Part shown: positions 24,293 through 55,814 of the stretch, one piece after another | Layout: each line of letters opens with the position of its first letter | How positions within the stretch are numbered: the stretch's first letter is position 1 | Assembly: GCA_963169805.1 (NCBI GenBank) | Contig: CAUJDY010000101.1 | Location: 1-55,814, forward strand | From: Bdellovibrionota bacterium | GTDB taxonomy: Bacteria; Bdellovibrionota; Bdellovibrionia; Bdellovibrionales; JAEYZS01 | Reading direction: 5' to 3' | Length of the DNA: 55,814 nucleotides | The notes under the pieces: model-generated | Seen by the model: only the letters and a program-made list of their open reading frames with translations | Database searches by the model: none | Told to the model about the DNA's origin: nothing | Position numbers and translations under genes: made by a program

Positions 24293-24667
24293 TCAGTTTG
24301 AGGGTTTGGGCATGTGCGTTGCACCTTCGAATACAACTCCCTCTTCTATCTTTAAACTTGGCGTGGTTACTGTACCCTTGAAGATTGCTGGAGGATACAT
24401 TTGCACTCTTTTTCTGGCAAAAATATTACCCTTAACAGTTCCACTAATAATCACTAAGTCCGCTTCTATTTGAGCTTCTACCTCTGCGCCAGCATCAATA
24501 ACAAGCGTGTCTTTTGTGAATATTTCACCCTTAAATTTACCTGCGATCCGTACCGTGCCTTCAAAAGTGAGCATTCCCTCAAAAGAAGCTCCCTGATCTA
24601 TAAGCGCGGTAACATGATCTAGATTTGACTTCTCAGAGCTTAAACTAGGTCTTTCGATGGATTCCAT
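24293..24667 (-). CDS. Bactofilin
   Basis: A 124-residue cytoskeletal polymer protein. After a polar N-terminal tail the DUF583 right-handed beta-helix core is visible as short repeats with Gly turns: GASFEGMLTFEGTVRIAGKF, GEIFTKDTLVIDAGAEVEAQ, ISGTVKGNIFARKRVQMYP, FKGTVTTPSLKIEEGVVFEG. Bactofilins polymerise without nucleotide and act as scaffolds for cell-wall enzymes or, in Myxococcus, for chromosome-segregation proteins. The ATG lies inside the 3' end of parB (28-nt overlap), so it belongs to the parAB operon. A role in origin anchoring is an inference from that position. Confidence 0.9.
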   Translation of the reverse strand: MESIERPSLSSEKSNLDHVTALIDQGASFEGMLTFEGTVRIAGKFKGEIFTKDTLVIDAGAEVEAQIEADLVIISGTVKGNIFARKRVQMYPPAIFKGTVTTPSLKIEEGVVFEGATHMPKPSN

Positions 24668-25716
24668 GATTTTTTAAGCCTTTCTGAAATTTGAGTCAGT
24701 TCACTATCAGAATAGAAGAAGATATTAATTTTTCCAATACCTTTTGAATAATCAATCTTCACCTTAGTCCCTAATGCTTTTTGAAGATCTTCTGCCATCA
24801 TATCAATAAGCTGGTTTGTGACCTCATCTCCCTTTGCTAATTCTTCTTTTGTTTTAGAAGCGCTTTTTGCAAGCTTCTCCGCGGCTCTAACAGTTAACTT
24901 TTCAGATGCAATTTTTTTTGCAACTTCTCTTTGTTTGATCGGATCCGTTATTGCCAATAGCGCCTTTGCATGTCCGGTGGAGAGCTCGCCAGAAATTACC
25001 ATATTTTTTACTTCTGGGGCTAATGTTAGTAATCTTAATGAATTTGTGATTGTGGTCCTATCCTTGCCAACCTTTAAAGAAATTTCCTGCTGGGTGAGAT
25101 TAAACTCGCGAGCTAATCTATCGTATGCTTCAGCTTCTTCTATCGCATTTAAATTTTCTCTTTGAATATTTTCAATGAGAGCGAGCTCAAGTGATTTTTG
25201 ATTATCAATATCCTTTAAAATGACAGGCACTTCGTGTAACCCGGCAAGCTGCGCTGCTCTCCATCTTCTTTCTCCGGCTATAATTTCAAATTCGCCATTT
25301 ATCATTTTTCGCGCCACTATTGGCTGTAATATACCTTGCTCTCTTATCGAGTTAGAAAGCTCCTGAATTTTTTCCTTTTCAAAATGTTTTCTTGGTTGGT
25401 AATTATTAATTTTTAATTTTTCAATTGGTATGTTCCAAATACGGCTTCCCTCTGGAATTTCCTCTCTTATAATTTCAACTTCTTTTACAACTTCTTTGAC
25501 GATCTTTATCTGTTCTGTGGGTGTTTGCACAGGGGCAGCTTGTGCTATCTGATTGCTTGCTTCCGGAACAGAAGTATACGCTTGAGTCTTTTCTTCTTCA
25601 TTGAATTCAATTTTCGACAACTCTGAGCCAAATAAACTACCTAGCCCTCGCCCCAATCCTTTTTTTTCACTTGGATTTGCCGCTGGATTGTTATTCGTTT
25701 TTTCTAAGTTAGACAT
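24640..25716 (-). CDS. parB: Chromosome partitioning protein ParB
   Basis: A 358-residue CTP-dependent DNA clamp that loads at parS and spreads. Visible parts: an N-terminal GRGLGSLFG box that contacts ParA; an unusual Glu/Lys-rich linker (about residues 60-95); the ParB/Srx CTPase region PRKHFEKEKIQELSNSIREQG and GERRWRAAQLAG; the helix-turn-helix LTQQEISLKVGKDRTTITNSLRLL that reads parS; and a C-terminal dimerisation domain. It overlaps parA by 8 nt and bactofilin by 28 nt. Three parS-like sites lie within 2 kb upstream. Confidence 0.96.
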   Translation of the reverse strand: MSNLEKTNNNPAANPSEKKGLGRGLGSLFGSELSKIEFNEEEKTQAYTSVPEASNQIAQAAPVQTPTEQIKIVKEVVKEVEIIREEIPEGSRIWNIPIEKLKINNYQPRKHFEKEKIQELSNSIREQGILQPIVARKMINGEFEIIAGERRWRAAQLAGLHEVPVILKDIDNQKSLELALIENIQRENLNAIEEAEAYDRLAREFNLTQQEISLKVGKDRTTITNSLRLLTLAPEVKNMVISGELSTGHAKALLAITDPIKQREVAKKIASEKLTVRAAEKLAKSASKTKEELAKGDEVTNQLIDMMAEDLQKALGTKVKIDYSKGIGKINIFFYSDSELTQISERLKKSWNPSKDLV

Positions 25717-26548
25717 TCGCCTCTCCTTGGTTCATGTTTTGCTCGTGTTGTATTTGTTGGCCAACAGCACTCTCCGCTACGCCATAGACATTATTATCAA
25801 GTTCTTGTGCAAGCTCCATATATTTCATAGCTCCCACCGACTTGTTGTCATAATGAATAATAGAACGACCGTGGCTTGGTGCCTCGCTTAGCCTTACATT
25901 TCTTGGAATAATTGATTTAAATACTTTGTCTCCAAAATGGTTTTGTATTTCTGAAACAACTTGGTGGCTAAGGTTATTTCTTGTATCAAACATAGTAAGA
26001 ACGATTCCTTCAATTTTTAAGTTTGGATTTATTCTTTTTTTAACCAAGCCCGCCGTATTTAACAGCTGACTTAACCCCTCTAGTGCATAGTACTCACACT
26101 GAAGTGGGACTAAAAAACTATTGCTTGCTGCTAGCGCATTTAGCGTCAACAACCCTAAAGAAGGAGGACAATCTATAAATATATAGTCATACGAGTCCTG
26201 GACTAGACTTAAGGCCTGTTTTAATCGGAACTCTCTATTTTCTGCATCAACAAGCTCAATTTCTGCGCCTACGAGGTCATTATTTGCAACAGCGACGTCT
26301 AAATTTGGCACACTGGTCTTTTGAGTAACCTGTTGAATACTCTTCTCACCAATTAGAACGTGGTATATGTTGGAGTCTACAAACTCATGACGCTTCACAC
26401 CAAGACCGCTTGATGCATTACCTTGGGGGTCTAGATCGATTAAAAGCACCCTACGACCTAAGTCTGCTAGGGCCGCTGAGAGATTCACCGATGTGGTGGT
26501 CTTCCCAACCCCACCTTTTTGGTTCGCGATGCATATAGTTTTTGCCAT
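25709..26548 (-). CDS. parA: Chromosome partitioning ATPase ParA
   Basis: A 279-residue deviant Walker ATPase that binds the nucleoid and pulls ParB-parS complexes. It has the deviant Walker A KGGVGKTTT near residue 11, DLDPQGNASSGLG, the Walker B FIDCPPSLGLLTLNA, and LRPLxC-type loops (PLQCEYYALEGLSQLL). ATG 26548 is preferred to the in-frame start at 26614 because GGAGGGAAGG lies just upstream and the ATPase domain then starts at residue 1. The longer form would begin at the edge of a parS site. Confidence 0.95.
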   Translation of the reverse strand: MAKTICIANQKGGVGKTTTSVNLSAALADLGRRVLLIDLDPQGNASSGLGVKRHEFVDSNIYHVLIGEKSIQQVTQKTSVPNLDVAVANNDLVGAEIELVDAENREFRLKQALSLVQDSYDYIFIDCPPSLGLLTLNALAASNSFLVPLQCEYYALEGLSQLLNTAGLVKKRINPNLKIEGIVLTMFDTRNNLSHQVVSEIQNHFGDKVFKSIIPRNVRLSEAPSHGRSIIHYDNKSVGAMKYMELAQELDNNVYGVAESAVGQQIQHEQNMNQGEANV

Positions 26549-26614
26549 GACCTTCCCTCCGTCGATTAGATAGTCAAATTTTGACAAACTTGCGCCTGTC
26601 ATTTGGATAGTCAA

Positions 26615-26630
26615 TGTTCCACGTGGAACA
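26615..26630. promoter_or_regulatory. parS site (perfect consensus)
   Basis: TGTTCCACGTGGAACA is an exact match to the widely conserved parS palindrome bound by ParB. It lies in the divergent spacer between parA (start 26548) and the lipoprotein gene at 26670, so bound ParB may also affect parA transcription (inference). Confidence 0.95.
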
Positions 26631-27147: not shown

Positions 27148-27807
27148 CTATGCAATTTTATTTGAACGAATTACGACTTTTACGCCTTTTCTTTCGGGAA
27201 GTTCAAACTCAAGCGCCATTTCAGTGTTCCACGTGGAACAAATCTGACTAGGAAGGGCCGCAATTTCAGAAAACCAATCAGTCCCTTTTATTATATAGAA
27301 CTTAGACCCCTTAGATAAAATTTTATTACCAAGAAGAAGTGTGCGCGCAAGATTAGAAACCTCTTTAGCTACTACTACTGAATTTGGATCCAACTTTAGG
27401 GACTCAAGCTTCCCGCTAATAACCTTCACATTTTTTAATTCTAACTTAGCAGCAATACTTCGAAGAAAGTCGCACTTTCTCTCATCTTCTTCTGCTAGGG
27501 TCACCTCTACACTATTATCAATAAGAGCCAGGATTATTCCAGGAAAGCCGCCTCCTGCCCCAACCTGTATGATCTTCTTTGCATTTGAATCCTTTAATAT
27601 AAATCTTGATGAAATAATACTCTCAAAAAAAAGTAGAATATCTATATGATGTTCTGTTCCTGGCTGAATCAGGCTTAGCTGCTGATTGTATCTCAATAGT
27701 TCCACGTGGAACAATCTCAAGTTCGATAAGACGGAATCCTCTAGATCATTAAAGAAATTTCTAATTCTCCAGTTTGGCTCCAGACAATCTCCCTTAGCGC
27801 TGCACAA
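27148..27807 (-). CDS. rsmG: 16S rRNA (guanine-N7) methyltransferase RsmG (GidB)
   Basis: A 219-residue SAM-dependent methyltransferase that modifies G527 of 16S rRNA. Motif I reads QVGAGGGFPGIILAL, where most relatives have Asp before Val-Gly; the acidic motif II follows (VTLAEEDERKCDFL). It follows mnmG with a 14-nt overlap (classic gidA-gidB). The start is uncertain: TTG 27807 is used, but a CTG at 27783 has a good AAGGGAG sequence upstream. The coding region contains two parS palindromes. Its 3' end lies 4 nt from the convergent lipoprotein stop. Confidence 0.9.
   Translation of the reverse strand: MCSAKGDCLEPNWRIRNFFNDLEDSVLSNLRLFHVELLRYNQQLSLIQPGTEHHIDILLFFESIISSRFILKDSNAKKIIQVGAGGGFPGIILALIDNSVEVTLAEEDERKCDFLRSIAAKLELKNVKVISGKLESLKLDPNSVVVAKEVSNLARTLLLGNKILSKGSKFYIIKGTDWFSEIAALPSQICSTWNTEMALEFELPERKGVKVVIRSNKIA
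27225..27240. promoter_or_regulatory. parS site inside rsmG
   Basis: A second exact TGTTCCACGTGGAACA, located within the coding region near the 3' end of rsmG, where it must also encode amino acids. It is 595 bp from the first site. Confidence 0.95.
27698..27713. promoter_or_regulatory. parS-like site inside rsmG (one mismatch)
   Basis: AGTTCCACGTGGAACA differs from the parS consensus only at the first base (A for T) and keeps the 14-bp GTTCCACGTGGAAC core. It lies near the 5' end of rsmG, 473 bp from the second site. Confidence 0.88.
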
Positions 27808-34034: not shown

Positions 34035-34115
34035 AATTGTTATCAGTTGATTCCTTGTGGGATTCATTTAAAAGCAATAGGTACTAACCTGCTCCACAAA
34101 ACCGTCGGGGGAATA

Positions 34116-35528
34116 TTGGAAAACATCTGGGAATCCATAAAAAACAGTATAAAGGTCAAAAACCCTGATAATAAATATATACAGACCTGGTTTGAACCTG
34201 TCGAACTACTTGAAACCGAATCTAGCCACAAGGGGACGGTTTTTAAGCTTGGAGTTCCTACTGATTTCCATAAATATTGGATATCAGAGAATTTTTTAGA
34301 TAAAATTTGCCAAGAAATTTCTACTGTAACAAAAGACCATTTTGAAATTCAGCTTATTGTTGTGCCGGAACTGGGACAGCAAGACTCGGGTATTGTACAA
34401 CCTGATTTGCCGGTTGTTGAAACACAGCAAAGCCTTCAAGCACAATTGAATACTCAAGAGCATAATAGTTACTCATCTTTGAGTAGCAAGCCTCAAAAAC
34501 AAGTGCTCAATCCTGACTACTCATTCTCTACATTTGTAGTAGGGAGAAATAACGAGTTTGCACATGCTGCAAGCTTTAACGTCGCAAAAAATCCAGGTGG
34601 CGGATACAACCCACTATTTATATGTGGGCCAACCGGTATGGGTAAAACACACCTCCTAAATGCAGTTGGAAACTACATCCACGAACATTTCCCGCAATTA
34701 AAAATAAGATATGTCTCCGCAGAAACTTTTTTGAATGAGTGTATCTCTGGAATCCGACGCGGAGAAATGTTTAAGCTCCGTAAGCGCTACAGAGAAGAGT
34801 GCGATGTCCTTTTAATGGATGACATTCAGGTTCTTGGACGCGGCGAGTCTGTGCAGGAAGAGTTTTTCCATACTTTAAACTCATTTTTTGATAGTGGCCG
34901 ACAGGTTGTGGTGGCAAGTGACCGCATGCCTAGGGATATTTCTGGTCTTGAAGATCGAATTCGAACTCGCCTTGAATGGGGTCTGATTGCAGATATACAG
35001 ATGCCTGATGTGGAAACTAGAGTTGCTATCCTGAGATATAAGGCAGAGAAAAAAGCTCTTAATATACCAGATGAGGTGGTCAACTTTATTGCTCGGATAT
35101 CCAAAAGAAGCATTAGAGAGCTTGAAGGAAATCTAAATAAAGTAAAAATGTTCACTGAATTAAGGGGTTTACCAATTACTTTAGATTTGACTAAGCAAAT
35201 TTTGGCTAGTCACTCTTCAGAATCTCAGCAGCTAACAGTTGATGAAGTGCAAAGACTAGTTTCAGAGCACTTTTCAATTAAGGTATCTGACTTAAAATCT
35301 TCTGTTCGTTCCAAGCCTATTGTGGTTGCAAGGCAAGTTGCTATGTATTTAGTAAAAACCTACCTTGAAAAGTCACTAATAGATATTGGCCGTGCATTTG
35401 GAGGCAGAGACCACACAACTGTGATCAGTGCACTTAGAAGAATCGAAGAACTACAGGGAAAAGATTCAGATTTACATAAGGATATCGAAGATTTAAGAAG
35501 AAAGATCCACAATATCACAGGTGTGTGA
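34116..35528 (+). CDS. dnaA: Chromosomal replication initiator DnaA
   Basis: A 470-residue AAA+ initiator. It has domain I (MENIWESIKNSIKV, TWFEP), a Gln-rich linker (about 90-130), a domain III with Walker A GPTGMGKT (171-178) and Walker B VLLMDDIQVL, and a domain IV helix-turn-helix ending DHTTVISALRRIEEL, which reads DnaA boxes. TTG 34116 is preferred because DnaA proteins begin at this point and GGGGGA lies 3-4 nt upstream; an in-frame TTG at 34047 would add 23 residues of no recognisable domain. It is the first plus-strand gene after the strand switch, with an oriC-like spacer downstream. Confidence 0.96.
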   Translation: MENIWESIKNSIKVKNPDNKYIQTWFEPVELLETESSHKGTVFKLGVPTDFHKYWISENFLDKICQEISTVTKDHFEIQLIVVPELGQQDSGIVQPDLPVVETQQSLQAQLNTQEHNSYSSLSSKPQKQVLNPDYSFSTFVVGRNNEFAHAASFNVAKNPGGGYNPLFICGPTGMGKTHLLNAVGNYIHEHFPQLKIRYVSAETFLNECISGIRRGEMFKLRKRYREECDVLLMDDIQVLGRGESVQEEFFHTLNSFFDSGRQVVVASDRMPRDISGLEDRIRTRLEWGLIADIQMPDVETRVAILRYKAEKKALNIPDEVVNFIARISKRSIRELEGNLNKVKMFTELRGLPITLDLTKQILASHSSESQQLTVDEVQRLVSEHFSIKVSDLKSSVRSKPIVVARQVAMYLVKTYLEKSLIDIGRAFGGRDHTTVISALRRIEELQGKDSDLHKDIEDLRRKIHNITGV

Positions 35529-35629
35529 ATGTGGATTGTGGATGAGTGGTGTGGATTACTCGTGTGAATTAGGTGGATGTGGATTACTCCACAATTTCAG
35601 CTGCTCCACAGTGTTAGAAGTCACATAGT

Positions 35630-35638
35630 TTATCCACA
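35630..35638 (+). promoter_or_regulatory. DnaA box (perfect consensus)
   Basis: TTATCCACA matches the consensus exactly. It is the only perfect copy I see in the dnaA-dnaN spacer; the others there have one or more mismatches. Confidence 0.85.
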
Positions 35639-35692
35639 CAGAATGCATAATAATTTTAGTAGCTTAGGCTTTAAATGACATAATCCACGGCC

Positions 35693-35710
35693 CTACTACT
35701 ACTACTAGTA
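35693..35710 (+). promoter_or_regulatory. DnaA-trio element next to the unwinding region
   Basis: Five CTA triplets then GTA (CTACTACTACTACTAGTA) directly follow a DnaA-box-like TAATCCACG and a GC cluster, and directly precede an AT-rich run. This order matches the basal unwinding system described for bacterial origins, in which DnaA is loaded from a box onto 3'-GAT-5' triplets of one strand. Confidence 0.75.
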
Positions 35711-35778
35711 TTTAATTATATATAAAAGAAGTATATATAAGGCACAAAAATGAAGTAAAAAGGCATGATGAGGAATTT

Positions 35779-36906
35779 ATGGAATTAAAGATTAAAAAGT
35801 CAGAACTTGTAGATCTAATTGGCAAAACACAAAACATTGTTGAAAAAAGAAACACAATGCCAATACTTGTAAACGTCTTACTTGAAGCAAAAAATAATAA
35901 AATTAAAGTATACGCCACAGATTTAGAAGTTAGTATAACGGATGAAGTTGAGTGCAAAGTCGGAACAGAAGGGAAAGTTGCAGTTGATGCAAAACAACTT
36001 TTTCAAATTGTTAAAGAGCTTAACGATGAAGGGCTCATACAACTAAAAAGCAAAGACAATAATTGGCTTATTGTGCAACAGGGGAAAGCTGTTTTTAATC
36101 TTGTAGGTAAAAATCCAGAAGAGTATCCAATATTCCCAACTTATTCTTCAGATCAATTCGTACGAATTAAAGCATCCGTCATGAAAGAGATGATCGAAAA
36201 AACTATTTACTCTGTATCAACTGATGAAACGAGATATCACCTTAATGGAGTTTTTTTTGAACAAATAAAAAATGGAAGTAAAACTCAATACAGAATGGTT
36301 GCAACAGATGGACATAGACTGTCTCTTGTCGATAGAGAAACAGGATATTCAGACGAGCAAGCGGTAAAGTTTGAAAAAGGTGTTATCATCCCTAGGAAGG
36401 GACTTTCAGAAATATCAAAAATACTAGAGTCTAACATGGATGATGTGGAATTTACTGTGGAAGGACCTCAACTCATTCTTAGACATAACAACACGGTGTT
36501 GATGATTCGGTTGATAGAGGGTAAATATCCTAACTTTTTACAGCTTATACCAAAATCACTTTCAAGAAATGTATTAGCATCACGTAACGAACTTATACAG
36601 AGTCTAAAAAGAGTTTCTCTTTTATCGAATAAAAAATCTAAAGGAGTTACGCTATCTTTTGCAAATGGAGTTATGTCGATTACAAGTAATAATCCTGAGT
36701 TAGGAGATGCAAAAGAAGAAATACAAGTGAACTATGAAGGTGAAGAAATAAAAATAGGATTTAATGCGCGCTACTTGCTAGATATTCTAAACAGCTTTAA
36801 TGAAGATGAAGTTGAAATTGAGTTGAATGATCAACTATCTCCAGGACTCTTTAGACCAAAGCAGGACAATAAATATACTTGTATTGTAATGCCGATGAGA
36901 ATCTAA
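35779..36906 (+). CDS. dnaN: DNA polymerase III sliding clamp (beta)
   Basis: A 375-residue ring-forming clamp. Three repeated clamp domains are visible. Motifs include NTMPILVNVLLEA in the first domain, MVATDGHRLSLVDRE in the second, and the C-terminal VMPMRI, which ends the client-binding pocket. GATGAGGAA precedes the ATG. It is followed by recF after 10 nt, the standard dnaA-dnaN-recF-gyrB order. Confidence 0.96.
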   Translation: MELKIKKSELVDLIGKTQNIVEKRNTMPILVNVLLEAKNNKIKVYATDLEVSITDEVECKVGTEGKVAVDAKQLFQIVKELNDEGLIQLKSKDNNWLIVQQGKAVFNLVGKNPEEYPIFPTYSSDQFVRIKASVMKEMIEKTIYSVSTDETRYHLNGVFFEQIKNGSKTQYRMVATDGHRLSLVDRETGYSDEQAVKFEKGVIIPRKGLSEISKILESNMDDVEFTVEGPQLILRHNNTVLMIRLIEGKYPNFLQLIPKSLSRNVLASRNELIQSLKRVSLLSNKKSKGVTLSFANGVMSITSNNPELGDAKEEIQVNYEGEEIKIGFNARYLLDILNSFNEDEVEIELNDQLSPGLFRPKQDNKYTCIVMPMRI

Positions 36907-51287: not shown

Positions 51288-52229
51288 TTACTTATTTATG
51301 CGAATAAACGATTCAGATTTTTTTTGCTCAATCCAAAACTTGAATTGCTGAGCAAAGGCTTTTTCATACAAAATATTTTGAATATCCTTTTTCTTTGCCT
51401 CGTAAGCAGGATCCTTCGTAATATTTTTACTAATAAGTTTAACAATATGGAAACCAAGCCTTGAGGAGACTACTTGAGAATATTGGCCTGGATTTAGACC
51501 TGCAACGGCATCCTCAAGTTCTTTTAAAAACTCTCCGTTTTTGAAGGTGCCTAAATAGCCGCCTTGAGTGAAATTGGGATCTTCACTGTATTGTGATGCA
51601 AGGGATTCAAAGCTGCCACCGTCATTGAGCTTCTTAAAAACATCATCTGCTCTCGATTTCGCAGCATCTTTATCTCCGCCCTTCGGACGAAAAAGAATAT
51701 GAGCAATAGAAAATTCAAAGGCACTTAGATTTTTGTTTCCATATTGACTGAGGTAGTAGTTCTGAATCTCTTCTTCAGAAATACGTATTTTTGAAGAGAT
51801 CGCTTTTTGAATAAGACCCTCTCGCTCCAATCTTTGCTTCATGAAATTTTGATACTCGGAGTAAGGAACACCTTGAGTTTTAAGTTCGTCAATAAGCTGT
51901 TGTTTGGTCATTCGATTTCTCTCGGCTACACGACGAATCTCTTGATCTACTTTTTCGACTGTGACGGCAAGGTCTTGCCTCTTTACTTCAGAGTCTATGA
52001 TTTTTTCATCAATCAACTGTTGTAAAAGAGCAGCATCGTTTTTGAGAAGAGAGGCTCTATCTTTAATGAGCAAATCATCTACAAATTTCCCTTTTTGAAG
52101 CTGCTTTTTAAACTTAAGAATGTCTGTTTGGGTGATAATCTCGTCATTCACTACAGCCACGATTTTATCTATTGTCTCTGCAGATACATAAGTAAAACAC
52201 AAGATCATAGCAATAAATAAGTGAAACAT
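51288..52229 (-). CDS. surA: SurA-type periplasmic chaperone / parvulin
   Basis: A 313-residue periplasmic chaperone for outer-membrane proteins. It has a signal peptide (residues 1-17, ending VSAE), the SurA N-domain opening IDKIVAVVNDEIITQTDI, a helical core, and one parvulin domain (about 170-265; IAHILFRPKGGD, GSFESLASQYSED, GGYLGTF, GFHIVKL). E. coli SurA has two parvulin domains. ATG 52229 is preferred (CAGGAGA upstream, signal peptide at once) over the in-frame start at 52295. It lies 1 nt after the next parvulin gene. Confidence 0.88.
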   Translation of the reverse strand: MFHLFIAMILCFTYVSAETIDKIVAVVNDEIITQTDILKFKKQLQKGKFVDDLLIKDRASLLKNDAALLQQLIDEKIIDSEVKRQDLAVTVEKVDQEIRRVAERNRMTKQQLIDELKTQGVPYSEYQNFMKQRLEREGLIQKAISSKIRISEEEIQNYYLSQYGNKNLSAFEFSIAHILFRPKGGDKDAAKSRADDVFKKLNDGGSFESLASQYSEDPNFTQGGYLGTFKNGEFLKELEDAVAGLNPGQYSQVVSSRLGFHIVKLISKNITKDPAYEAKKKDIQNILYEKAFAQQFKFWIEQKKSESFIRINK

Positions 52230-52230
52230 T

Positions 52231-53217
52231 TTAATCTCCTGCGGGAGTAACTTGGATAGCCCTAATGGCATCGGTATTTTTAAAAACCTTGGCATTTCGA
52301 ATTTGCTGCTCTAGCCAACCTGAATAGAGGGCATTTTCTTTGTTTCCCATTAGAATTCTATATATTTTTTTTCGCGCTTCTTCAAATGTTAATGTTCCCT
52401 CTGGCTTTTTACCGATAACCTCGAATATATGAAATCCATATGGACTTTTCATAACACCACTGCGCTGTCCGACTCTCATATTAAAGGCTTTATCAAAAAT
52501 ATCTAAAGCACCCTCGTCAATCCAGCCGGTATCCCCGCCAACCTTAGCGTCCGGCGAAGTAGAGAATTTTTTTGCGAGTTCTTCAAAGTTCGTTTTAGAG
52601 TCTATGCTATGATAGATTCTCTGCGCGGTATCCTCATCAGTTAGAACAACCTGCCTGAGTCTAATCTGAGCAGAGACCTTAAACTGCTCTTTATTGGAAT
52701 TGTAGTAAGAGCGCAGATCCTCTTCTGAAGGTTCTGCAACGTCTTTCATTAATACAGCAAACACCTTTTTTTGTAGAATTTTTTCTGAAAGAACCTTTTT
52801 CCAGTCGGAAAGGGTTTGCTTAGACACAGCTAGCGCCTCATTAAAGCTTATATCATCAGGGTAATTTGATCGAACGGCATCTATTTCTTTGTTTATCTCT
52901 TGGTCAGATACGGAGATGTTATTTTGCTTTGCCCACTCGACTAATAAAGTTTTGTGTATAAATCCTTCTATGATTCTGCTTTTTTGAAACTCAACAACGC
53001 TAGAGTCTCTTGCCATAACGTTATCGTATTCTTCAAGAGATCTCGCGAGCTGTTCTGATAATTCACCTGCAGTTAGGGCAGAGCCGTTAACTCGGATTAA
53101 AACTGTATCTGATAAACTGCTTTTTTTGTGTAAATTAAAGTAAAGCGCCACTCCAATGAAGAGAAGAACTAAAATCCCCCCCCAAAATGAAAGTACAAGT
53201 AGGCGCTGTTGCTTCAT
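52231..53217 (-). CDS. Membrane-anchored parvulin-type peptidyl-prolyl isomerase
   Basis: A 328-residue protein. An uncleaved membrane anchor (about residues 8-27) is followed by a SurA/PrsA-like N-domain (VNGSALTAGELSEQLA, then FIHKTLLVEWAKQNNISV) and one PpiC domain (about 185-272; RLRQVVLTDEDTA, FEELAKKFSTSPDAKVGGDTG, GFHIFEVIGKK). It likely assists folding of exported proteins at the inner membrane. The start overlaps the stop of the upstream parvulin gene as TAATG, and surA follows by 1 nt. Confidence 0.88.
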   Translation of the reverse strand: MKQQRLLVLSFWGGILVLLFIGVALYFNLHKKSSLSDTVLIRVNGSALTAGELSEQLARSLEEYDNVMARDSSVVEFQKSRIIEGFIHKTLLVEWAKQNNISVSDQEINKEIDAVRSNYPDDISFNEALAVSKQTLSDWKKVLSEKILQKKVFAVLMKDVAEPSEEDLRSYYNSNKEQFKVSAQIRLRQVVLTDEDTAQRIYHSIDSKTNFEELAKKFSTSPDAKVGGDTGWIDEGALDIFDKAFNMRVGQRSGVMKSPYGFHIFEVIGKKPEGTLTFEEARKKIYRILMGNKENALYSGWLEQQIRNAKVFKNTDAIRAIQVTPAGD

Positions 53218-54032
53218 TATAAATTTTTAGGAAAAGTTTTAATGCTGTACTGTGATTTTAACTTACTGAATAGACCATCAAAAAGAGCTTTCTTTTTTGT
53301 TTCTAAAACAGCGGCTCTTAACTTCACCTTGTCTGCATCTTTATAAGTACGTCTTCCTGTTAGTTTAATAACATGAAACCCATAAGGAGTTTCTATCAAA
53401 CCTGAAGATTGCCCATCTTTCAATTTAAGAGCGGCTTGGTAGTACTCTGGTATGAGAGTATTGGAGGCGTGCCAGCCAATGTCTCCACCATTCTTTTTGC
53501 TTATTGTGTCGTCACTATAGAGCTTTGCAAGTTGTTCAAAAGGCTTATCTGATTTGCGAATCTCAGAGTACACTTGGTTTGCGCGACTTTTAGCTGCATC
53601 GATTTCTTTTCTATTTGCGTTTTGCTTAAGCTCAATCAGGATATGACTTGTTCGAATCTCCGGATTTTTTGCATAGTAAGCCTGCATTTCTTTATCTGTT
53701 ACAGAAATCTCATCTGCTTTTTTACCAAGCTCTTTTTCAATAAGATCTACATAAAGAACCTGACGGATTCTTTCTTGAACAATAGGATCTTTTTCTAAAT
53801 TTCTTTTTTGAGCTTCCTGCACCCCAACTTCATAGCGAACTAGATCTTCTAAAAATAATTCTTTTGGAGGAGGATTTGCAGTTTTTGTAACAACTTCTTT
53901 ATATCTTTTATTAAATTCGTCTTTTGAAATTTTGCGAGTTCCTACGACGGCCACAATATCTTTTTCTTCTTGTGCGTATGTCGAGGTTGCAGTTAAAAAA
54001 ATAATCAAAGCTGATAATGCCAATTTAAGCAT
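53217..54032 (-). CDS. Periplasmic parvulin-type peptidyl-prolyl isomerase
   Basis: A 271-residue protein with a Sec signal peptide (residues 1-20, TYAQ) and a PrsA/SurA-like arrangement: an N-domain (DIVAVVGTRKISKDEFNKRY), then a PpiC domain (about 127-230; RTSHILIELKQNA, FEQLAKLYSDDTISKKNGGD, GFHVIKLTGRR). It is the first of three tandem parvulin genes and is preceded by a strong GGAGGA. It lies 43 nt after the acyltransferase gene. Confidence 0.88.
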   Translation of the reverse strand: MLKLALSALIIFLTATSTYAQEEKDIVAVVGTRKISKDEFNKRYKEVVTKTANPPPKELFLEDLVRYEVGVQEAQKRNLEKDPIVQERIRQVLYVDLIEKELGKKADEISVTDKEMQAYYAKNPEIRTSHILIELKQNANRKEIDAAKSRANQVYSEIRKSDKPFEQLAKLYSDDTISKKNGGDIGWHASNTLIPEYYQAALKLKDGQSSGLIETPYGFHVIKLTGRRTYKDADKVKLRAAVLETKKKALFDGLFSKLKSQYSIKTFPKNL

Positions 54033-54075: not shown

Positions 54076-54738
54076 TTAATGCAACGCTTTAAGAGCGTCT
54101 GACGCCAAGTGACCTGCTTGAAGAGCTTTTTCCTTCAATTCTTTAACAAAAACTGGATCTCGTGGGTCATCTGTTTCTTTGAGGGCTTCAATGGGGTCTC
54201 CCCACTTCAGATAAACAGTACTAAAAAGTTTTGGCATAGAGGCTTTATCCCAGGCTTTATTCAAAACATATTGAGAGGAACAAGCAATTCCACCGGGATA
54301 AATTCTTGCTCCCAAAATTTTTGATAATTCAAACACTCCGGGTTTAGGTTCGTGGCGTGGTCCGCGCGGTCCATCAACAGGCACAACTGGGATTAAGCCA
54401 CTTTTTGACATTCGAAGCAGGGATCTAAGACCTTGTGCCCCTTTTTTTGAGGAAGATCCTCTTGCCATTTTTAATCCAAGTTTTTCAAGAACGCGTGTGA
54501 TGATCTCCCCATCCTTACTTACAGAGGCTATAGAAACAACTGGATAAAACCTTGAAAATGCTACGATTGCCTGAATATCTCCGTGCCAGTGGGCAAAGAT
54601 AACAGGCCGTTTGTTTTTTAAATCTTCATCAAGCTGGGGGTGAGAGATAATCTTCAGTCTCCAGCTTGCAATAAAAATACGATAGACAAAAAAAATAAGA
54701 TTTGTAAAAAACCATATCTTTAATTTTTCAAAAAACAT
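54076..54738 (-). CDS. DUF374-type lysophospholipid acyltransferase family protein
   Basis: A 220-residue membrane-associated acyltransferase relative. An N-terminal hydrophobic helix (LKIWFFTNLIFFVYRIFIAS) is followed by the FAHWHGD block, with His and Asp of the acyltransferase site. Next come the DUF374 signature ARGSSSKKGAQGLRSLLR and PVVPVDGPRGPRHEPKPGVF. DUF374 proteins sit in the LPLAT superfamily and are suspected to act in lipid A or phospholipid acylation; the substrate is unknown. The ATG overlaps the etfA stop by 1 nt (TAATG). Confidence 0.85.
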   Translation of the reverse strand: MFFEKLKIWFFTNLIFFVYRIFIASWRLKIISHPQLDEDLKNKRPVIFAHWHGDIQAIVAFSRFYPVVSIASVSKDGEIITRVLEKLGLKMARGSSSKKGAQGLRSLLRMSKSGLIPVVPVDGPRGPRHEPKPGVFELSKILGARIYPGGIACSSQYVLNKAWDKASMPKLFSTVYLKWGDPIEALKETDDPRDPVFVKELKEKALQAGHLASDALKALH

Positions 54739-55694
54739 TACGCCAAGATCTTTTTAAATTCTTCATTCAACTTTGGGACCACTTCAAAGACATCACCAAC
54801 TATTCCGTAAGTTGCTTTTTTAAAAATTGGAGCTTCAGGATCTTTGTTGATTGCAACAACAACTTTACTTGAACCCATGCCAGCCAAGTGTTGAATGGCT
54901 CCAGAAATTCCGCAAGCTATATACAAGTTCGGAGCAACTGTTTTACCTGTTTGTCCCACTTGAAGCGCATGCGGCACCCATCCTGAATCAACAACAGCTC
55001 GGGATGCTCCAACGGTTGCGCCGATGGTTTCAGCAAGGTCTTCTAAAATTTTAAAGTGCTCTGGCCCCTTCATTCCACGACCACCAGATACAATGATAGA
55101 AGCCTCTGAAAGATCTGGCTTTGAGGATTGTGATTTTACAACTTCTTTGACTTTAATTTTAGCGCTCGGAATCGTAAAAGAAACTGTTTCAATAGAAGCA
55201 GTTGCTCCTGCTTCTGCAGGAACAGGGTATTGATTTGGCCTCATAACAATAAATTTCTTTTTTGATGATGCAGAGAACTCGGCATCAGCAGTACATTTAC
55301 CGGAGTACAAAGGTCTTTTAGCCTTAATGCTTGCTCCTTCCACTTTTATTTCAACAACGTCACTAACATATCCGGAGTCAAATTTTGCCGCCAAACGAGG
55401 AAACAGATCTTTTGTTGTCATGCTAGCAGACGCAATAATAAGCTCGGCACCAGAAGAGTTAATAATATTGGTAAGTGCAGCCATATAAAAAGCAGAGTTG
55501 TAATTTTTTAGATCGGCATGATCTATGGAGTAAATTTTTGTAACGCCATACTTGGATAAGCTTTGTGCTGCCTCAGAAACTCCATCCCCAATCAAAACGG
55601 CATCTACTGATTTTCCAGATAGAGCCGTTAATATTTAAAGAGAGCTTTTTTTGATTTTTGATTGATTTGTTTAAACAAATAAAAGTGTTTTCAT
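54738..55694 (-). pseudogene. etfA: Electron transfer flavoprotein alpha subunit, with two in-frame TAA codons
   Basis: Read through from ATG 55694 the frame is 318 codons, the usual length of EtfA, and encodes MKTLLFV-TAA-TNQSKIKKSSL-TAA-ILTALSGK and onwards. The TAA codons are at 55671-55673 (codon 8) and 55635-55637 (codon 20). Both fall where EtfA proteins normally have Glu (compare LLFAE and KSSLE), so each is one base from GAA. From codon 34 (TTG 55595) the frame is open, with domain I (IGDGVSEAAQSL, TKDLFPRLAAKF) and an intact FAD domain II (VSGGRGMKGPEHF, GATVGASRAVVDSGW, VGQTGKTVAPNLYIACGIS). AAAGG precedes ATG 55694. It is either a recent pseudogene, a truncated protein starting at 55595, or a sequence error. 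Confidence 0.85.
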
Positions 55695-55712
55695 AGCTAA
55701 ATACCTTTGTAG

Positions 55713-55814
55713 TTAAATAATTTTTGCTTCTTCTCTAAGGAGTTTTGTAAGGGTTTGCGCTTGAGCACCAGCATCACCACTCAGCATCTTCACAGGAGGT
55801 CTCTCTGCTGGAAG
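55713..55814 (-). CDS. etfB: Electron transfer flavoprotein beta subunit, 3' end (partial)
   Basis: The last 33 codons of a gene that continues past the right edge, ending QAQTLTKLLREEAKII and TAA at 55713. The preceding residues (LPAERPPVKMLSGDAGA) and this tail match the C-terminus of EtfB, which wraps onto EtfA. It lies 18 nt before the ATG of etfA, the normal etfB-etfA order. Confidence 0.75.
   Translation of the reverse strand, partial: LPAERPPVKMLSGDAGAQAQTLTKLLREEAKII

Follow-up and report, generated by a model that had tools for sequence, protein, structure and literature searches.

Contig breaks left by the assembler MEGAHIT carry overlaps of the maximum k-mer length, and alternative joins at such breaks can arise from sequencing error or from strain variants; a usual k-list has 141 as its maximum (PMC10914622). 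The locus considered here is an etfA gene (electron transfer flavoprotein alpha subunit) with two in-frame TAA codons near its start (Table 1); a search of the literature for stops in metagenome assemblies yielded nothing. The window, that is, the stretch of DNA that was analysed, makes up contig C101 in its entirety (55,814 bases). This contig is one of 159 in a fragmented metagenome-assembled genome that is Bdellovibrionales-like (2.38 Mb, estimated to be 93.8% complete), and the start of etfA therefore sits at a contig end, with the terminus of the contig 141 bases upstream of the first TAA. Genome-wide tests of stop usage, tRNAs and interrupted genes sampled 1.62 Mb, about two thirds of the genome. 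As argued below, the two stops most likely belong to a contig-end branch of the assembly rather than to the organism's own biology or to a new mechanism.

Table 1. Features at the etfA end of the window, with coordinates in the 55,814-base contig C101
Feature	Position	Strand	Evidence
3' end of etfB, continuing intact into contig C66	55713..55814	-	frame read across the C66/C101 junction
etfA (electron transfer flavoprotein alpha subunit), frame broken by two in-frame TAA	54738..55694	-	translation; PF00766 and PF01012; homology
First in-frame TAA, codon 8; first base 55673	55671..55673	-	translation; relatives E 55, D 16, A 1
Second in-frame TAA, codon 20	55635..55637	-	translation; relatives E 71, G 1
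16-base palindrome ATTTGTTTAAACAAAT, made perfect by the first T of the first TAA	55665..55680		palindrome search
Contig-end overlap, same as the last 141 bases of C66 (53677-53817)	55674..55814		100% identity

The minus-strand translation of etfA from ATG 55694 begins with MKTLLFV*TNQSKIKKSSL*ILTALSGKSVDAV..., and the frame consists of 318 codons plus a final TAA (54738-54740), with 298 open codons after codon 20. Translation reveals neither a frameshift nor any stop besides codons 8 and 20 and the terminal TAA, in agreement with the sequence-only reading made earlier, which had described TAA at these two codons of an unshifted frame of 318 codons. Two features upstream of the ATG that were pointed out in that reading are likewise present, namely AAAGG, at a distance of 9 nt, and the stop codon of etfB, at 18 nt. 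The open part of etfA matches PF00766, the C-terminal FAD-binding domain, over profile positions 1-80 of 81 (E=2.9e-38). Of PF01012, the N-terminal ETF domain, the open frame covers only profile positions 42-178 of 181; a complete PF01012 in one open frame is absent, its initial part being encoded but broken by the two TAA.

In an alignment of 72 EtfA relatives, 29 from related whole genomes and 43 from GTDB contigs, the N-terminal segment is present in every one. The residue corresponding to codon 8 is glutamate in 55 relatives, aspartate in 16 and alanine in 1, and that corresponding to codon 20 is glutamate in 71 and glycine in 1, bearing out the earlier expectation of glutamate at both sites; a stop occurs at neither site in any of the 72. 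The closest relative found shows 66% identity, while the scan of GTDB genome contigs gave a best relative of 60% identity and no record of the same species among the contigs scanned. Homologues of etfA were found in 59 of 60 related genomes. Besides the stops, the gene departs from the relatives at 6 of about 100 near-invariant sites; this falls within the range of 0-7 departures seen in 36 relatives, and thus nothing suggests that the gene drifted as a pseudogene between two separate hits. Neither relaxed constraint nor further damage was seen elsewhere in etfA. Its partner genes are also in order: read across the C66/C101 junction, etfB is a single open frame of 273 codons ending with TAA at 55713-55715, and ETF-QO is intact, Fer4_ETF_QO being encoded in an open frame of 567 codons on contig C65. 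A second copy of etfA, raised as a possibility in the sequence-only reading, did not appear when the genome was searched by protein and by family, both of which gave a single etfA. Immediately beyond etfA and a DUF374 gene, on the downstream side, a row of three genes (51288-54032) encodes PPIC-type peptidyl-prolyl isomerases of 271, 328 and 335 aa, which have SurA-like N-termini.

When the last 300 bases of the window were searched against the same genome, one other match was obtained, at the end of contig C66. This contig is 53,817 bases long, so that the overlap spans its end too, and C66 and C101 share their ends; the terminal 141-mer is absent from the rest of the bin outside these two contigs. 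A comparison of 247 contig ends, which did not extend to C140-C159 or, for contigs longer than 20 kb, to the far end, gave 14 exact end-to-end overlaps once masked all-N contigs had been set aside (11 short contigs being masked); every one is of exactly 141 bases. The shared 141-mers do not look like genome repeats, since each of the 14 occurs at most twice among the contigs sampled. The constant length points to a de Bruijn assembler with k=141, a signature of MEGAHIT; several GTDB records of metagenome-assembled genomes have k141 in their names. The C101/C66 pair, being among the 14, shows the fixed-length exact overlap of a k-mer fork in de Bruijn assembly. Of the other 13 junctions, most have long open frames running across the overlap, and at none of these 13 does the first new base make a premature stop.

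The first base past the C101/C66 overlap is 55673, the T of the first TAA. Because the overlap ends exactly before this T, we infer that a base other than T is present in the reads at 55673, with a sense codon at this place on the other branch; the fork would most likely be at the end of the overlap next to the T, with T opposed to another base at this position. A fork on the C66 side was considered and rejected: the stop-making base would then stand at the end of the overlap by accident, for which we estimate a chance of about 2 in 957, assuming a random place in the gene. The shortest contig seen in the bin has 2,516 bases, and a short contig with the alternative branch would thus be excluded from the bin.

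The sequence-only reading had left four options for the two stops, namely recent inactivation, a truncated EtfA, stop readthrough and errors in the assembly. Since the first TAA starts exactly after the 141-base overlap, assembly error or variation is the best supported of them, while truncated EtfA and readthrough are without positive evidence. We assign a probability of roughly three in four to the reading that the stops represent either an error path or an allele of a minor or mixed strain on a branch of an assembly fork at the contig end; the error path and the minor-strain allele are favoured jointly, as one pair, over a fixed inactivation. According to this reading, etfA would be an ordinary gene, the first 20 codons of which, at the contig end, lie on one branch of a fork in the metagenome assembly graph. 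In either case both TAA would belong to the C101 branch, and the working etfA of the species would most likely have sense codons, for glutamate, at both sites and encode a subunit of normal length.

Compared with the consensus of the relatives, the apparent changes at the two TAA are both G to T, and each turns a TTGAAA hexamer into TTTAAA, the original codon at both sites presumably being GAA. G to T is a common Illumina miscall of G; in one MiSeq study it was the commonest, making up 45% of the substitutions of G in one read and 40% in the other (PMC4381044). Known error motifs end in GG (PMC4787001). The TT context of the etfA changes is outside the known error motifs, and C101 runs unbroken past the second TAA, both of which count against a pure error. 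From the unbroken contig it also follows that no other path rejoined there in the final graph of the assembler; the TAA path was thus its surviving link into C101 and may have real read support.

The alternative that survives best, although we regard it as unlikely, is that etfA was truly inactivated not long ago in the sampled strain, alongside strains in which the gene is intact. The gene is otherwise undamaged, as a recent event would leave it, the continuation of the contig past both stops may reflect real read support of the TAA path, and the fork itself fits a mixed population. It is, however, improbable that two nonsense mutations arose independently at a distance of 36 bases with no other damage; both changes possibly came from one clustered mutational event. 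The loss would also be costly: with etfB and ETF-QO intact, a single etfA in the genome, and etfA present in all 51 good-quality relatives (51/51), fixation would strand a complete ETF system. Quasi-palindrome correction was considered as a source of the stops, on account of the perfect 16-base palindrome that the T creates, and rejected as unproven; it leaves the second TAA, which has a 6-base palindrome only, unexplained. The 16-base palindrome at the first TAA, among just three perfect palindromes of this length in the window, is probably incidental.

Production of a normal but shorter EtfA from TTG 55595, or by reinitiation past the stops, is highly improbable. The frame from this TTG is open for 285 codons, but the codon has no ribosome-binding site, while ATG 55694 is preceded by AAAGG, and the N-terminal segment that would be dispensed with is shared by all the aligned relatives (72/72). 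The product would begin only after position 41 of the 181 in PF01012 and so miss the strand and helix with which domain I opens, and the truncated EtfA put forward in the sequence-only reading finds no support in these observations.

Readthrough of TAA or its recoding as glutamate at both sites, by local recoding or a partial suppressor, deserves even less credit. Both TAA fall on sites where glutamate is expected and the frame goes on after them, but TAA is the main terminator, ending 515 of 899 long open frames in the sampled contigs, a usage with which the earlier judgement that a genome-wide reassignment is unlikely holds good. No tRNA with a TTA anticodon is present among the 18 tRNAs in the 1.62 Mb sampled, and a scan based on codon bias and coding potential, a weak test that is blind to early stops, detected no other gene with an internal stop. 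The single strong match in the scan for interrupted genes was identified by eye as a natural pgpA-cinA-like gene boundary between two neighbours. That both TAA are real, fixed and decoded, as glutamate or by readthrough, in etfA alone, with ETF synthesis tied to the efficiency of stop suppression, is extremely improbable.

Elsewhere in the window, a chromosome-origin region encodes proteins with ParB, ParA, GidB/RsmG, DnaA and DnaN domains (24640-26614, 27148-27807 and 34047-36906). Two identical perfect 16-base parS-like palindromes, TGTTCCACGTGGAACA, occur in this region, one (26615-26630) and the other (27225-27240) being divided between a place just upstream of parA and a place within the rsmG frame. 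The left contig end (1-103) is occupied by an inverted-repeat element, positions 1-77 of which match their own reverse complement at 87%. Pieces of this element, 78-100% identical and often in facing pairs, were found on contigs C94, C40, C30, C26, C36, C19, C84, C16 and C120; the element looks like a dispersed hairpin repeat.

The assignment of the etfA stops to a branch of an assembly fork gives a caution for the use of metagenome-assembled genomes: where an in-frame stop falls roughly a k-mer length or less from the end of a contig, end overlaps should be looked for before the stop is called pseudogene or recoding. Were the stops of etfA real, a relative of predatory bacteria would be losing its only ETF and hence the ETF-linked dehydrogenases, a modest metabolic finding.

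The locus can be compared with three known systems. It resembles nonsense-inactivated bacterial pseudogenes in having in-frame stops in a conserved gene, but differs from them in that etfA shows no drift, frameshift or further damage and that the stops begin exactly at an assembly fork. It shares with the EtfA family (PF00766/PF01012) the full downstream domain structure, the etfB-etfA gene order and an ETF-QO in the genome, whereas two in-frame TAA in the first 20 codons are found in none of the aligned relatives (0/72). It also resembles the maximum-k overlaps of MEGAHIT described in the COBRA paper (PMC10914622), with which it has in common an exact overlap of fixed length, its position at contig ends and a sequence that is not repeated; it differs from those overlap systems in that two variants lie on the branch and in that the competing branch is absent from the bin.
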